Made by a program: the position numbers and the translations under genes. Shown here piece by piece: positions 1-5,684 of a stretch of DNA of 43,910 nucleotides. The notes under the pieces are model-generated. The model was not told the origin of the DNA, did no database searches, and saw only the letters and a program-made list of their open reading frames with translations. Position 1 is the first letter of the stretch, and each line of letters begins with the position of its first letter. Source of the stretch: Arthrobacter sp. Br18 (GTDB lineage Bacteria; Actinomycetota; Actinomycetes; Actinomycetales; Micrococcaceae); NCBI RefSeq assembly GCF_000520555.1, contig NZ_KI914857.1:102432-146341 (forward strand). Direction: 5' to 3'.

Positions 1-38
1 GGCCGGGAGCCGCCGATCAGCGGATTCTCAACGCTCAC
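1..38 (-). CDS. purQ: Phosphoribosylformylglycinamidine synthase subunit PurQ (5' end only)
   Basis: Only the first 12 or so codons are inside the window. A GTG at 38-36 overlaps the purS stop codon as GTGA, and the reading begins MSVENPLIGGSRP before the edge. This resembles the short N-terminal lead found before the glutaminase domain in PurQ of Arthrobacter-type bacteria. PurQ supplies ammonia from glutamine to the PurL synthase, with PurS as the bridging subunit, in the fourth step of purine synthesis. The identification rests mainly on the translationally coupled position after purS, the usual order in Gram-positives. Confidence 0.72.
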   Translation of the reverse strand, partial: MSVENPLIGGSR

Positions 39-295
39 TGCGCGTCCTCGTCGATGACCTCCACGCGGGTGACGTCTTCGATCACCGGGTTCGACAGGAG
101 TGTCGTCGCAGCCTGGCGTGCCTGCTCGAGTACCTCGGCGGTCACCTCGCCCTCGACCGTGAGCTCGAAGCGCTTTCCCTGGCGGACACCGGCGAAACCG
201 GTGAGGCCGAGCCGCGGGAGTGCCCCGGCAATGGCTTTGCCCTGTGGGTCAAGGATCTCGGGCTTGGGCATGACGTCGACGACAATCCGGGGCAT
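35..295 (-). CDS. purS: Phosphoribosylformylglycinamidine synthase subunit PurS
   Basis: An 86-residue protein of normal PurS length. The N-terminal strand MPRIVVDVMPKPEILDPQG and the later RQGKRFEL and NPVIEDVTRVEV segments are typical of the family, a small ferredoxin-like subunit that dimerises and links PurQ to the small-type PurL in FGAR amidation. The ATG at 295 has an AGGAG ribosome site at about 303-307. The stop overlaps the purQ GTG, so the two are probably translated together. The upstream 197 bases have a possible -10 (TAGACT, minus strand, 404-409) and a 6-bp hairpin (TGCTGG/CCAGCA, 321-337) in the presumed leader. I do not recognise a riboswitch there. Confidence 0.93.
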   Translation of the reverse strand: MPRIVVDVMPKPEILDPQGKAIAGALPRLGLTGFAGVRQGKRFELTVEGEVTAEVLEQARQAATTLLSNPVIEDVTRVEVIDEDAQ

Positions 296-492: not shown

Positions 493-1050
493 CTATGTTG
501 CGCCGCCGGTGCCGAGGATGCTCCGGACGGCGTTCCATCGCGAGATCTCGCAGCCGTCCGTCAGTGCGAATGACGCAAGGATCTGCGTGCCGTCGACCGT
601 GCCGGTAATCGAGGCGGTCTGCGGTCCTCCGTACTGCTGCGTACAGGCGACGTTCCTGTCCGGCAGGGCGTTGAAGAAGGACGCCCCGAGGCTTGCCACC
701 GTGGCGCAGGCCTCCTCGGCGTTGGGCAGGGTGGTGTTCGGACCCGGTGTGGCACTGGAGCATTCAAGGACATACCGAACCGGCTCTGCGGTGTCGGACT
801 GCCGGATCTCGACGGTGAGGAGAGTGCTTGCCTGGGCACCAGGGGCGGAAGGATCTGCCGGCGACGGCGTAGACGGCATGGCGGACGACTCCTGAGGGGT
901 TGGGCTGTGTGTGGGACTCCGGGGTGCATCCGGCTCTGCGGGAGCACCGGCGGGAGCGCCGCAGGCCGCGAGGCCGAGCGTCAGAGTGAGGACGGTGAGC
1001 GCAATCCCGCGCCGCAGAATCCGTGCGGGCTGCGTGTGGACGCGATCCAT
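493..1050 (-). CDS. Lipoprotein with a subtilisin-inhibitor-like (SSI) domain
   Basis: A 185-residue lipoprotein. Residues 11-30 form a signal peptide ending in the lipobox LAAC, with Cys30 as the lipidation site. A Pro/Ser/Ala-rich spacer (31-72) follows, then a globular domain with four cysteines at 97, 115, 136 and 167. Their spacing (18, 21, 31) closely follows the two disulfides of Streptomyces subtilisin inhibitor (about 15, 21, 30). The segments around them (ECSS, EACATV, CTQQY, TVDG, GCEI) align with SSI blocks. The residue at the SSI P1 position would be Gln138 rather than Met or Lys, so inhibitory activity is uncertain. A strong GAGGAGG site precedes the ATG. A secreted subtilase lies about 1.1 kb away. 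The SSI assignment is by motif recognition. Confidence 0.75.
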   Translation of the reverse strand: MDRVHTQPARILRRGIALTVLTLTLGLAACGAPAGAPAEPDAPRSPTHSPTPQESSAMPSTPSPADPSAPGAQASTLLTVEIRQSDTAEPVRYVLECSSATPGPNTTLPNAEEACATVASLGASFFNALPDRNVACTQQYGGPQTASITGTVDGTQILASFALTDGCEISRWNAVRSILGTGGAT

Positions 1051-1075
1051 GGGCCTCCTCGTTGCACTTTCGTTC

Positions 1076-1102
1076 AGCCTAGCTTCTGGCCTGCAAGCTC
1101 AA
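1076..1102 (-). promoter_or_regulatory. Candidate promoter of the SSI-like lipoprotein gene
   Basis: On the minus strand TTGAGC (1102-1097) and TAGGCT (1081-1076) are separated by 15 bases. Transcription would begin near 1069, giving a leader of about 18 bases that carries the GAGGAGG ribosome site. The lipoprotein gene can therefore be expressed independently of the gene upstream of it. Confidence 0.4.
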
Positions 1103-1989
1103 CCTCCTGCAAGGTCAACCGCCTGCTCGAGTTCAGCGAGGAGCCGGCGCCGGAGTTCCTGAGACTCCATGGCGAAGGCGCGCTGCTCACGGACATACTC
1201 GGCCTTGCCCTCCGGAAGTTCGATCCGGATCGGCGCAAGTCCCCACCGGGTGAGGTCGTAGGGAGATGCGCGCATGTCCATGGCCCGGATGCGCCAGGAG
1301 AGTTCGAAGCAGTTCAGGACGATCCCGCTCGACAGCAGGGGTGTCAGCTTGTACGCCCACTTGTAAAGGTCCATGTTCGCGTGCAGGCACCCGGGTTGTT
1401 CGAGGTGCCGCTGGTTCTCACGTGTCGGCGTGAGCTCATTGAGCGGGGCCGCCTCGGGTGCGTAGAAGCGGAAGGCATCGAAGTGGGTGCAGCGGATTTT
1501 CTCACCTTCGACGACGCCGTCCGTCCCTTTCGCGCCCAGCCTCAGCTCAAGGTACTCATGGCGCACTCCGTTGAGTTCGGAACGATAGGCCATTGCCCAC
1601 TCATGGAGGCCGAAGCAGCCGTACTGCGCCGGACGCGCTGCTGTCCCGGACAGGATGGTGCGGGTGAAATCGACCGTCGACTGGCGGTCGCGAAGGAAGG
1701 CTGCGACATCGACGCCCGCTCCGCCGCCGTCGTGGGTGTAGTACTTCCACCCCGCGCGCTCCAGTGCCGCGTTCCCCGCCAACCTCACGCCGGCCCCGGG
1801 GTGCCACCGCAGCAGCTGCCCCGGTTTCAGGTTGTAGTAGGTGAAGAGGAAGTCCTCGACGGGATGCTTCGCGCCGGTGGAGCGGCGGAGCAGATACGGC
1901 TCGGTGAACCTGCGGACACGTGCCTGATGGGCCTCCTGGAGTGGGACCCACTCCGTTTCGGAAGAGAGCGTGGCGTGGTGCAGGGGCAT
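1099..1989 (-). CDS. Conserved actinobacterial protein, often labelled 3-methyladenine DNA glycosylase
   Basis: A soluble protein of 296 residues from the ATG at 1989. A TTG at 2034 would add 15 residues, and the best ribosome-site match (GGAGG, 1991-1995) is too close to the ATG to decide between them. Recognisable blocks are HPVEDFLFTYYNLKPGQLLRW, GWKYYTHDGG, CFGLHEWAMAY and GCLHANMDLYKWAYKL. I recall this family in many actinobacteria under the name 3-methyladenine DNA glycosylase, but I see no helix-hairpin-helix with catalytic Asp and no AAG-type fold signature. The name is best treated as unproven. Conserved His, Cys and Tyr residues suggest an enzyme or metal site. Confidence 0.7.
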   Translation of the reverse strand: MPLHHATLSSETEWVPLQEAHQARVRRFTEPYLLRRSTGAKHPVEDFLFTYYNLKPGQLLRWHPGAGVRLAGNAALERAGWKYYTHDGGGAGVDVAAFLRDRQSTVDFTRTILSGTAARPAQYGCFGLHEWAMAYRSELNGVRHEYLELRLGAKGTDGVVEGEKIRCTHFDAFRFYAPEAAPLNELTPTRENQRHLEQPGCLHANMDLYKWAYKLTPLLSSGIVLNCFELSWRIRAMDMRASPYDLTRWGLAPIRIELPEGKAEYVREQRAFAMESQELRRRLLAELEQAVDLAGG

Positions 1990-2088
1990 TCCTCCATTAT
2001 CACCCTCCCGGATTTCCGCACCGGTCGGCAACAATTTGCTCGAGACTTCCGCTTTTCCCTAGGCGGACGGTGTTGCCTAGGGTAAGTT

Positions 2089-2122
2089 TGTGACCGCTGT
2101 GACGCTTGTGACCGTAGTCACA
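2089..2122 (+). promoter_or_regulatory. TGTGAC repeat array and CRP/GlxR-like palindrome before the subtilase
   Basis: TGTGAC occurs at 2089, 2098 and 2107, an exact 9-base step. The third copy is the left arm of a perfect palindrome, TGTGACCGTAGTCACA (2107-2122), which fits the CRP/GlxR pattern TGTGA-N6-TCACA. The array lies 78-111 bases before the subtilase ATG at 2200. The match to CRP-family sites is seen in the sequence. Regulation by such a protein is inferred. Confidence 0.5.
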
Positions 2123-2199
2123 CGGTGTGTCCTATCCAGGAGTTCCAGCATGAGGGGATCGGCGATGCCGCGCCCGCACTGACGAAAGGCATTTTTCCT

Positions 2200-5100
2200 A
2201 TGACACGACAAGGTCAAGCCGTGCTGCGGAGCTCCAGGCTCCGCGCAGCCACGGCCATTGCTTTGGGGTTGCCGTTACTGATGGCATCGGCCTCGCTGGC
2301 CCCGGCCGCGATCGCGGCACCGGCGCCCCTGCAGACCGCGCCAGAGCTCCAGGGCGCCGAAAGTTTTGAGGACGGGTCCTACATTGTGATGCTGCAGGAG
2401 CATCCGCTGGCTTCCTACGACGGGGGAACCGAGGGAATCGCGGCTACGAAGCCCGGCAAGGGCGAGAAGCTGAACCTGGCTTCCCCGAACGCGCGGGCCT
2501 ACGAAGCGCGGCTGAAGCAGAAGCAGCAGGACGTCGCGGCGGCCGTCGGGATCGAGGCTAACTCCTCCTACACCGTCGCCCTGAATGGCTTTTCCGCAGA
2601 ACTGACGGCGGGCCAGGCAGCGCAGTTGGCCAAGAACCCCGACGTCTACGCCGTGGCGCCCAACGTGCAGAACAGCCCCGACTACTCAAGCACCGAGTTC
2701 CTTGGCCTTCCGGGTGAGGACGGCGTGTGGGCCAACCAGTTCGGCGGTGCTGAAAACGCGGGCAAGGGCACTGTTGTCGGTGTCATCGACACCGGCTACC
2801 GGCCGGAGAATGCATTCCTGACGGGAGAACCGGTCCAGCCCCTTGAGGGCACCCCGGTGGTCGGAGAACCATATCGGACTCCGGATGGCGGGATCGCCAT
2901 GCTCAAGGCGGACGGCACCACATTCCTGGGCGAGTGCGAAGTCGGCGAGGACTTCGACGGCACCGCGTGTAACTCGAAGGTCCTCAGTGCCCGCTACTAC
3001 GCGGACGATTTCCTCAACTTCGCCACCCCCTCGGCGGCCGAGGTCATCTCGCCGCTGGATATTGATTCCCACGGCACACACACCGCCTCGACGGCCGCAG
3101 GCAACGCTGACGTCCCGGTGTCCGTCGACGGACGCGACTTCGGCAACGGCGCCGGCGTCGCCCCCGCGGCGGCAGTGTCGGTCTACAAGGTCTGCTGGGA
3201 AAACGCAGCGGCAACGGGCGGTTGCTACACCTCCGCCTCGGTGGCGGCGATCGAGCAGTCGATCATCGACGGCGTGGACGTCCTGAACTATTCCATCTCG
3301 GGAAACACCAATTCCACCACCGATCCCGTGGCCATGGCATTCCTGTCGGCGGCATCCGCGGGAATCTTCGTGTCAGCGTCGGCCGGTAACTCCGGCCCGA
3401 CCGCGAGCACGGTGAACCACAGTTCTCCCTGGCTGACCACGGTGGCCGCCAGCACCTTCTCCCACGAGCTCCAGGGCACGGTCGAGCTCTCGGACGGCAC
3501 CAAGTACCGGGGCGCTTCAGTCATGAACCGTGAGGTTCCCCAGACCGCCGTCGTGCTCGCCGCCAACGCGGGCCGTGAGGGCGCGTCTGCCTCGCAGGTC
3601 GCCCTGTGCACGCCGGGCACCCTCGATCCGGCGAAGGTCTCCGGCAAGATCGTGGTCTGTGACCGCGGAGTCATCGACCGTACATTCAAGAGCGCCGCCG
3701 TGCTGGAAGCCGACGGCGTGGGCATGGTCCTGGTGAACCTGACTCCGGGATCGCTCGATCTCGACCTGCATTCAGTGCCCACCGTCCACATCGACGGCGG
3801 TGCCATCAAGGAAAAGCTCGCGGCGAACCCCGCGCTCACCGCTGCGCTGATCGATGAGGACACTACCGGCCTTCCCACTTCGCCTGATCCCCAGGTCGCG
3901 GCGTTCTCCTCGCGCGGGCCGTCACTCGCCGTGAACTCCGACCTGCTGAAGCCCGATGTGGCAGCACCCGGCGTCAATGTGCTGGCTGGCATCTCCCCGG
4001 TAGGCACGGGCGAGAACTACGGATTCCTCTCCGGAACCTCCATGGCCGCTCCCCAGGTTGCCGGGCTCGGAGCCCTCGTCCTGGCGAAGAACCCGGCCTG
4101 GTCACCGGCGGCCGTGAAATCCGCCCTCATGACCACCGCCGGCGACCTCGTCAATGAGGACGGCAGCACCAACGAGGACCTTTTCGCCACCGGAGCAGGA
4201 CATGTGAACACGGCAGGCCTGCTCAACCCGGGTCTCGTGTACGACGCGGATGCCGATCACTGGAACGGCTTCCTCCAAAGCCTCGGAGCGGAGCTCGGAC
4301 TGAACAAGAAGCAGGTTGTGGAGGCACGGGATGTCAACGTGCCGTCCTTCGCGGTGGGTAACCTCACCGGCAAGGTCACCGTTACCCGCACCGTCACCGC
4401 CACCGCACCCGGCAGCTACACCGCCAGTGTTGACGTTCCCGGGATCGACGCACGCGTTTCCCCCGCGAAGCTGAACTTCCGGGCAGCAGGGGAATCGAAG
4501 GAATTCAAGGTCACTTTCGAGAATCGGACGGCGGCACTTGACGCATTCGCCATGGGCCACCTCACCTGGACCGAGAGCAAGGGGACCACGGTCACCTCGC
4601 CGGTCACGGTGCGTCCGGTCACTGCCGTGGCCCCCGCCTCCGTTGCACTGACCTCCGCCGAGGGCACCGGATCCGGGACCTTCAACGTGGTGTCGGGAAC
4701 CGACGGCACAGTTCCCATGACCGTGAAGGGCCTCGCCGGGGCGAACCGCAGCGACATCGAACTGGTGCCGGGCGACCCCAACTACTTCGAGACGGATGCC
4801 AGCAACAACGTCAGTGAAGTGGTTGTCCCCGCGGGAACGTCACTCGCGAAGTTCGCAGTGAACGCAGCCGACACCGCTGACGACTTCGACCTGTTCATCG
4901 TCACGCCACGGAACGAGCTCCTGTCGGCAGCAACAGCTTCCGCCAGCGAGGCGCTCGTGCTGAACAACCCGATTCCGGGCACTTACCGGATCGTCGCCAG
5001 CCTGTACAGCACAACCGACAACGGTGCCGGAACAGGCACCGTCGAGTCCACGGTCCTGGCCGGGGACGAGGGGAACATGACCGTCAGCCCCAACCCGCTG

Positions 5101-5313
5101 AAGGTCAAGAACGGCAAGGAGTCCCAGGTCACCGTCTCCTGGAGCGGCCTTGAACCGGGCAACTACGTGGGACGTATCGAATTCGGTACCGGGTCCGCGA
5201 CCGCCGTCAGCCTCACCGTTGGTGCCGATGGAAGCGCAACCGCCGCTTCCACCGAAGCCACGGTCGTGGTGGACGGTGGAGCTCCCGCCGTCGAAGGTTC
5301 ACTGCTCCGCTAG
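2200..5313 (+). CDS. Secreted S8 subtilase with I9 propeptide, PA and C-terminal Ig-like domains
   Basis: A 1037-residue exported serine protease. Domains in order: signal peptide (1 to about 40), inhibitor I9 propeptide (about 59-155), and a peptidase S8 domain with Asp197 (VIDTGY), His291 (DSHGTH), oxyanion Asn397 (SAGNSG) and Ser614 (SGTSMAAP). A protease-associated (PA) insert lies at about 440-555. A fibronectin-III-like domain (about 715-810) and a pre-peptidase C-terminal-like region (about 887-945, DFDLFIVTP) follow. All catalytic residues are present. There is no LPXTG or membrane anchor, so it should be released or loosely wall-bound. The ATG at 2200 was chosen because it begins the signal peptide and has GAAAGG at 2183-2188. 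The frame stays open to 2125. It probably degrades external protein for nutrition. An SSI-like lipoprotein gene is nearby. Confidence 0.93.
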   Translation: MTRQGQAVLRSSRLRAATAIALGLPLLMASASLAPAAIAAPAPLQTAPELQGAESFEDGSYIVMLQEHPLASYDGGTEGIAATKPGKGEKLNLASPNARAYEARLKQKQQDVAAAVGIEANSSYTVALNGFSAELTAGQAAQLAKNPDVYAVAPNVQNSPDYSSTEFLGLPGEDGVWANQFGGAENAGKGTVVGVIDTGYRPENAFLTGEPVQPLEGTPVVGEPYRTPDGGIAMLKADGTTFLGECEVGEDFDGTACNSKVLSARYYADDFLNFATPSAAEVISPLDIDSHGTHTASTAAGNADVPVSVDGRDFGNGAGVAPAAAVSVYKVCWENAAATGGCYTSASVAAIEQSIIDGVDVLNYSISGNTNSTTDPVAMAFLSAASAGIFVSASAGNSGPTASTVNHSSPWLTTVAASTFSHELQGTVELSDGTKYRGASVMNREVPQTAVVLAANAGREGASASQVALCTPGTLDPAKVSGKIVVCDRGVIDRTFKSAAVLEADGVGMVLVNLTPGSLDLDLHSVPTVHIDGGAIKEKLAANPALTAALIDEDTTGLPTSPDPQVAAFSSRGPSLAVNSDLLKPDVAAPGVNVLAGISPVGTGENYGFLSGTSMAAPQVAGLGALVLAKNPAWSPAAVKSALMTTAGDLVNEDGSTNEDLFATGAGHVNTAGLLNPGLVYDADADHWNGFLQSLGAELGLNKKQVVEARDVNVPSFAVGNLTGKVTVTRTVTATAPGSYTASVDVPGIDARVSPAKLNFRAAGESKEFKVTFENRTAALDAFAMGHLTWTESKGTTVTSPVTVRPVTAVAPASVALTSAEGTGSGTFNVVSGTDGTVPMTVKGLAGANRSDIELVPGDPNYFETDASNNVSEVVVPAGTSLAKFAVNAADTADDFDLFIVTPRNELLSAATASASEALVLNNPIPGTYRIVASLYSTTDNGAGTGTVESTVLAGDEGNMTVSPNPLKVKNGKESQVTVSWSGLEPGNYVGRIEFGTGSATAVSLTVGADGSATAASTEATVVVDGGAPAVEGSLLR

Positions 5314-5378: not shown

Positions 5379-5403
5379 CGCCTTCCCGTGGCCGCCGGTG
5401 CAC

Positions 5404-5409
5404 TAAGCT
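5404..5409 (+). promoter_or_regulatory. Candidate -10 element of the 80-residue protein gene
   Basis: TAAGCT fits the TANNNT pattern. A start near 5416 would give a leader of about 26 bases containing GGAAAGG (5425-5431) before the ATG at 5442. No clear -35 is seen. Confidence 0.35.
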
Positions 5410-5441
5410 GGAAGTGCTCTCCGTGGAAAGGCGCAGCCAGA

Positions 5442-5684
5442 ATGGACATGAATCCGGTCAACAGGAATGACGATCAGGCAAAGCCGGGCATGGTCGAGCG
5501 CTTCATGAAGGTCACCGGCAAGGCGCGGGTATTTTTCGGACCGGCGCAGTCGAGCGCTCTGGACCATCCCATGACGGCGGAGAACGAAGCGTTGCTCAAA
5601 CAACAGCATTCCGAGGCAGGGCAGTGGGAAACGGTGACGCGTGCCGACGGCAGCACGTACATCGTTCCGCGCCGAATCCGATAG
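5442..5684 (+). CDS. Small conserved protein of unknown function
   Basis: An 80-residue soluble, basic protein. The ATG at 5442 has GGAAAGG 10 bases upstream, and reading from there starts MDMNPVNRND. The central segment VERFMKVTGKARVFFGPAQ and the C-terminal WETVTRADGSTYIVPRR look structured, with a basic tail. No signal peptide, membrane segment or known motif is seen. It has its own promoter-like element after a strong terminator and ends convergently with lysC, which suggests a free-standing gene. I recall similar short proteins in Arthrobacter but no function. Confidence 0.7.
   Translation: MDMNPVNRNDDQAKPGMVERFMKVTGKARVFFGPAQSSALDHPMTAENEALLKQQHSEAGQWETVTRADGSTYIVPRRIR

Follow-up and report, generated by a model that had tools for sequence, protein, structure and literature searches.

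The window analyzed here, a 43,910-nucleotide stretch of the Arthrobacter sp. Br18 genome (contig NZ_KI914857.1, positions 102,432 to 146,341), harbors a lipoprotein gene of the Streptomyces subtilisin inhibitor (SSI) type, named SSI-a, close to the gene for a secreted S8 subtilase, named SUB. SSI is the textbook secreted inhibitor, known mainly from Streptomyces, and corresponds to MEROPS family I16. It is reasonably likely that SSI-a is a surface-tethered protease inhibitor with the SSI fold, and that SUB is one plausible target. The SSI-a gene, its lipobox, its SSI-type domain, the constrained loop of this domain and the conserved neighborhood of the gene are established. Some relatives carry a second copy, SSI-b, which in many cases lacks an export signal.

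SSI-a encodes a predicted lipoprotein with an SSI-type domain

SSI-a occupies positions 493 to 1050 on the minus strand and encodes 185 residues, starting with an ATG that is preceded by a Shine-Dalgarno sequence, GAGGAGG, at 1054-1060. The lipobox LAAC (residues 28-31; positions 958-969, minus strand) is conserved in relatives, with Cys31 the predicted site of lipidation. A linker of 41 residues rich in Pro, Ser and Ala follows (835-957, minus strand); its length in 125 relatives has a median of 42 and a range of 5-97. The SSI-type domain covers approximately residues 76-171 (538-825, minus strand), as delimited by the Pfam match (78-157), a phmmer match of residues 67-171 to the SSI structure 3ssi, an AlphaFold2 model and fold searches. 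After the lipobox cysteine, further cysteines are found at 97, 115, 136 and 167. An earlier note on this DNA, made from the sequence alone, had described a membrane-anchored lipoprotein with these four cysteines; that description holds. The same note had the cysteine spacing closely matching that of SSI. The spacing is near, at 18/21/31 residues in SSI-a versus 15/21/30 in SSI (2sic alignment), but not exact. All four SSI-position cysteines are Cys in 127 of 128 copies of the four-cysteine class defined below, in which they are predicted to form two disulfides as in SSI.

The comparisons draw on 38 genomes of the window's genus, 197 of its family (Micrococcaceae), 396 of its phylum and 14 control genomes; genomes, loci and genera of this sample are coded G, L and g, respectively. 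SSI-a is the single match to the Pfam SSI model (PF00720) in the Arthrobacter sp. Br18 genome. None of the 14 control genomes matched this model and 35 of the 38 genus genomes did, so the match is not due to chance. Against solved structures, phmmer matched SSI-a to 3ssi with an E value of 1.9e-5, and a profile built on a 27-row alignment of SSI-a relatives (A1) reached 2sic at 6.5e-7. The AlphaFold2 model has a mean pLDDT of 87.9. With this model, rows 1-13 of the Foldseek search were all SSI family (E 8.0e-5 to 2.2e-3, query TM 0.49-0.57), and VIA listed eight SSI entries with Z scores of 8.9-9.8, the next fold having a Z score of 4.7. The SSI-like fold proposed in the earlier note is thus borne out by structure prediction, the strong matches being all SSI.

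The loop CTQQYGGP (residues 136-143; 622-645, minus strand) is the predicted reactive loop, based on alignment to SSI and on the P1 residues of the family. Gln138 aligns opposite the reactive Met of SSI (CTQQY in SSI-a, CPMVY in SSI), which we take to be P1. The assignment of Gln138 as the P1-equivalent residue, made from the sequence, is therefore retained.

A predicted lipoprotein is the rule in Micrococcaceae

Within the genus, 32 of the 38 genomes scored above the curated Pfam cut-off of 23.9 bits, and A1 recovered SSI in two (G026, G028) of the three genomes that Pfam missed. A1 matched 109 of the 197 family genomes, G112 and G195 by fragments only. In the phylum sample 29 of 396 genomes matched, 11 of them from genus g39, which we infer to be Streptomyces-like. 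Every g39 genome contains a single strong match (best E 1.8e-19 to 5.7e-27), accompanied in nine of them by one to three weaker matches. In G556, A1 and Pfam SSI score best at different genes, each being weaker where the other is strong, so two SSI types coexist there.

A compiled set of 153 SSI open reading frames (ORFs) from 133 family genomes was divided into class a, the four-cysteine class, defined by the presence of the first two cysteines (128 copies), and class b, in which the first two cysteines are lost (25 copies). A lipobox was found in 125 of the 128 class a copies; the remaining three comprise a copy with LPAC, a copy truncated where its contig ends and an ambiguous copy. The view that SSI proteins are normally secreted free fits the Streptomyces-like genomes, with a lipobox in 0 of 11 g39 loci, but not the Micrococcaceae. 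Among the other distant loci, six of nine have a lipobox.

The class a P1 residue is Gln in 80 copies, Met in 25, Glu in 19, Asp in two and Ala and Thr in one each; Gln, Met and Glu thus account for 124 of 128, and Lys or Arg was found in none of the 128. Since Gln is the commonest residue, Gln138 is normal for the SSI-a family, and the earlier statement that it is unusual does not hold for this subgroup. The P1 counts for 20 more distant loci are Met nine, Glu five, Gln four and Phe two. All 27 rows of the alignment have Thr at P2 and the loop Pro; copies compiled later include exceptions. The median dN/dS of SSI-a in the genus is 0.26 (14 sequences, 89 of 91 pairs usable). All dN/dS values were obtained by NG86 and are rough because dS is high in many pairs.

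Three observations stand apart from this distribution. Record WNZI01000008.1 (L122), titled Vibrio cholerae strain 35D, contains an Arthrobacter-type SSI gene with 65% identity; the title is probably a mislabel. Two more divergent lipoproteins of SSI-like type, encoded at L241 (G061) and L323 (G131), have a reactive loop that is degenerate and lie distant from SUB and GLY, the gene described below. A plasmid search gave two records with partial matches only.

SSI-a and the neighboring subtilase

SUB (positions 2200 to 5313, plus strand) lies in a frame open from 2125, with the ATG at 2200 as the likely start. The product is a secreted S8 subtilase (PF00082, 135.1 bits) with matches to I9 propeptide, PA and fn3_6 domains. 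The catalytic Asp, His, Asn and Ser are complete in SUB and in 76 of 76 copies longer than 700 aa, an alignment that includes the window's SUB and leaves out three shorter matches. The earlier note was correct in calling SUB large and catalytically complete. A catalytically dead second SUB in g10, suggested by a missed HGTH pattern, was rejected, as the sites read HGSH and all four residues are kept. Comparison of the SUB propeptide junction with the SSI loop yielded no readable cleavage residue, the junction pattern occurring in only part of the 76 copies.

The gap between SSI-a and SUB is approximately 1.07 kb, in line with the 1.1 kb stated before, but it contains a gene that had gone unmentioned. 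This conserved gene, GLY (1099-2034, minus strand), is on the strand of SSI-a and its stop is 48 bases ahead of the SSI-a start. Among the 197 family genomes, SSI and SUB occur together in 55 (in G195 via an SSI fragment with a stop), SSI alone in 54, SUB alone in 17 and neither in 71. In 51 of the 55 genomes with both, no more than 5 kb separates SSI from SUB, the exceptions being G168, G166, G071 and G195. To this extent the gene pair is conserved in relatives. Three g10 genomes (G046, G155, G193) have an SSI-GLY-SSI block with a SUB copy on either side, so that each of the two SUB copies is next to an SSI.

Several observations weigh against SSI-a as an inhibitor with SUB among its targets. 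Concerning the family assignment, the Pfam SSI scores of SSI-a fall on either side of the cut-off (genome search 24.6 bits, hmmscan 23.4), and NCBIfam inhibitor models score far under their cut-offs (25.1 of 197 bits). The root-mean-square deviation between the SSI-a model and SSI is 4.3-5.4 Å, which makes SSI-a a distant cousin of SSI. Concerning SUB, an orthologue of it is missing from 54 of the 109 genomes with SSI, and SSI is missing from 17 of the 72 with SUB. With these counts, the idea, raised as a possibility in the earlier note, that SSI-a guards the cell surface against SUB in particular is weakly supported. A search for S8 genes, the sole protease class sought, was negative in the fetched flanks of all 59 SUB-less family loci and all 20 distant loci. 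The Arthrobacter sp. Br18 genome encodes five S8 genes (six matched pieces, two of them in one frame). Counting genes within 3.5 kb of SSI as near, GLY is near in 122 of 135 loci and SUB in 74. The partial distance correlation between SSI and SUB is 0.40 over 46 loci and 0.15 within the genus, where that between SSI and GLY is 0.46; given this mixed result, the mirror-tree comparison was dropped as support.

It is therefore necessary to consider that the SSI-a/GLY/SUB cluster is inherited synteny, and that SSI-a inhibits foreign proteases or other proteases of the cell with no special tie to SUB. We regard this as rather unlikely. It is favored by the persistence of SSI in the SUB-less genomes, by the distant loci with no nearby S8 gene and by GLY, near-universal in the family, being the closer neighbor. 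It is also favored by purS, the downstream neighbor used as a synteny control (35-295, minus strand; assigned by Pfam and NCBIfam), which is near SSI in 71 of the 135 loci (ASK in 44) and, in several genera where it is beyond 3.5 kb, keeps its place in the region at a distance of 4-5 kb (L104, L107, L242, L095). The apparent retention of SUB beside SSI where purS is gone, in g7, g10, g20, g25 and g28 (28 of 33 loci versus 0), was dropped, since at least four of these loci have purS at that distance. Only g25 was therefore counted as a clear synteny break, and it speaks against inherited synteny as the full account. Seven g25 genomes have their SSI-b and SUB matches separated by 139-307 bp at a new site common to all seven, where GLY, purS and ASK are all missing from the 3.5 kb around the pair; GLY is found on a different contig or at a distance of 283 kb or more. 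This relocation is probably one event. Ordinary synteny accounts for much of the proximity of SSI and SUB, and g25 is the clearest sign of more; the tie to SUB is suggestive, not exclusive.

The region between the divergent GLY and SUB genes contains a palindrome, TGTGACCGTAGTCACA (2107-2122), a perfect match to what we take to be the CRP consensus. Exact sites of this type number two in the 3.54 Mb of the genome, which encodes five CRP-type helix-turn-helix matches above the cut-off. Within the genus, a CRP-like site (at most one mismatch) is present in 28 of 29 SUB-bearing loci, 19 of them exact, and absent from all four loci without any SUB (L079, L092, L238, L239). Six genus loci were counted as SUB-less; the remaining two, L069 and L074, end at a contig boundary within SUB, and L074 keeps the site. 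In other genera 1 of 34 SUB-bearing loci has such a site. The window alone offers no surprise, as a site this close to the consensus (one mismatch or none) turns up in 55 of 100 shuffles of it. The idea that this site controls SSI and SUB jointly was rejected: because the four genus loci without SUB also lack the site, it is tied to SUB only and is silent on SSI. Scans for sigma-70 promoters and terminators gave nothing beyond shuffles. Downstream of SUB is a small conserved ORF of 98 aa (5388-5684, plus strand) that has no Pfam match; 35 of the 135 loci have it no more than 3.5 kb from SSI.

GLY and the leaderless copies of SSI-b

GLY is matched in 193 of the 197 family genomes. It has no sequence match in Pfam, NCBIfam or PDB. 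Its model has a pLDDT of 93.7, and fold searches with it gave no Foldseek row under E 0.5 and a best VIA Z score of 5.8, which indicates no clear known fold. GLY has no hydrophobic leader and contains many invariant residues, among them several Cys, His and Trp; it is perhaps an uncharacterized enzyme. The label "3-methyladenine DNA glycosylase", presumably applied to GLY-like proteins, was not used.

The 25 class b copies, SSI-b, are found in five genera (11 in g10, seven in g25, four in g20, two in g29 and one in g19). A lipobox is present in all seven g25 copies. The 18 copies from g10, g20, g29 and g19 (for example at L243, L098, L102, L111 and L242) have neither lipobox nor hydrophobic leader; without an export signal, they look intracellular. 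In five of the 18 the open frame leaves 6-21 residues ahead of the domain, so no signal peptide fits. The starts of 11 of the 18 overlap the GLY stop, by four bases in nine and by one base in two. The others start 29 bases after the stop (three), three bases after it (one) or at -8 or -44 (one), or are in loci with no GLY (two). The median dN/dS of SSI-b is 0.24 in g10, 0.29 in g20 (four sequences, six pairs) and 0.27 in g29 (one pair). The loop C-T-Q-Q-Y-G-G-P is kept in 11 of 11 g10 copies, and the g20 copies retain neither the canonical loop nor any of the four cysteines. In the tree, 20 of 24 distinct class b rows form one clade (support 0.95), which includes g25, and the four g20 rows form another (1.00); both are inside a wider group of 26 with a support of 0.78. 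No SUB was found in the g29 and g19 SSI-b loci.

The proximity to GLY raises the question of whether the SSI fold has given up inhibition and been taken over for binding or for a structural role, with GLY perhaps involved; this appears improbable. The class a copies are beside GLY in both gene orders (GLY then SSI-a in 100 of 128, SSI-a then GLY in 23, the locus being without GLY in five), the SSI-b starts commonly overlap the GLY stop, and g20 SSI-b retains its low dN/dS without cysteines or canonical loop. However, SSI-a keeps the features of a canonical loop, and SSI copies are found apart from GLY in g25 and g29. Moreover, GLY has no leader and should therefore not meet the exported SSI-a.

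A further proposal, possible though somewhat doubtful, is that the SSI fold of Micrococcaceae has been split between two compartments. SSI-a would be the surface lipoprotein, and SSI-b a duplicated, leaderless and presumably cytosolic form that has dropped the first disulfide, mostly starts on the GLY stop and mostly abuts SUB. In such a scheme the surface would be protected by SSI-a, and SSI-b may restrain mis-activated SUB within the cell; alternatively, SSI-b may be a partner of GLY.

Discussion

The surface-tethered inhibitor that we favor may function as follows. The SSI-a prolipoprotein would be exported, lipidated at Cys31 and held at the outer face of the membrane, where a flexible linker of approximately 41 residues would present the inhibitor domain in the wall zone. 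The disulfide-braced loop C136-T-Q138-Q-Y-G-G-P would insert in a serine protease in a substrate-like manner, with Gln138 at P1, and the resulting inhibition would protect surface proteins. What we infer for SSI-a is that it is lipidated, sits at the cell surface and acts as a canonical inhibitor through Gln138 at P1, and that SUB is one of its targets. Inhibition of subtilisin-like enzymes is plausible because the side chains of Gln, Met and Glu are similar in length and SSI uses Met. The neighboring secreted SUB would be one target among possible others; it is not likely to be the sole target, because SSI persists where SUB is absent.

A branch of the family that is nearly always a lipoprotein and has Gln, Met or Glu at P1 may provide a simple system for testing tethered self-protective inhibitors. 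The leaderless SSI-b would be an SSI fold working without the first disulfide, with one genus lacking the cysteines for either. The portions of the open-access literature searched yielded no account of an SSI that is a lipoprotein or of a bacterial SSI that lacks a leader. According to PMC5238444, reports of the SSI domain are confined to Actinobacteria, mostly Streptomyces, except for two fungi; the four cysteines are conserved in the 19 sequences of that study, and one fungal SSI-like protein is predicted to be cytosolic. PMC4255298, as far as its accessible text goes, merely cites SSI work.

The closest known system is SSI itself, which SSI-a resembles in fold, in the four-cysteine pattern and in where the reactive bond lies, namely in the loop following the third cysteine. 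The identity of SSI-a to 3ssi and 2sic is 23% in structural alignment. SSI-a alone has a lipoprotein signal, a long linker and Gln at P1, and its loop is one residue longer after P2' (YGGP versus YDP). SSI-a thus differs from the classical Streptomyces SSI subgroup in having a lipobox instead of free secretion and a YGGP instead of a YDP-type loop. The second SSI-like type of Streptomyces-like genomes shares the YGGP-type loop and a GCEI..W-type motif with SSI-a but lacks the lipobox (0 of 11 loci). Two SSI-like genes, with SCO4010 named, are reported for S. coelicolor in the available part of PMC5853079, and this second type is perhaps the SCO4010 type. The leaderless SSI-b recalls IPI of Bacillus subtilis, an intracellular subtilisin inhibitor described in PMC3901451; both lack an obvious leader and are linked to a subtilisin, whereas the fold of IPI is different, being Ig-like. 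An alternative start with a signal peptide was raised there for IPI, but in five SSI-b genes upstream stops leave no room for one. Taken together, SSI-a belongs to a known inhibitor family as a conserved variant, apparently anchored at the cell surface, and its leaderless paralog in relatives is the more surprising departure from that family.

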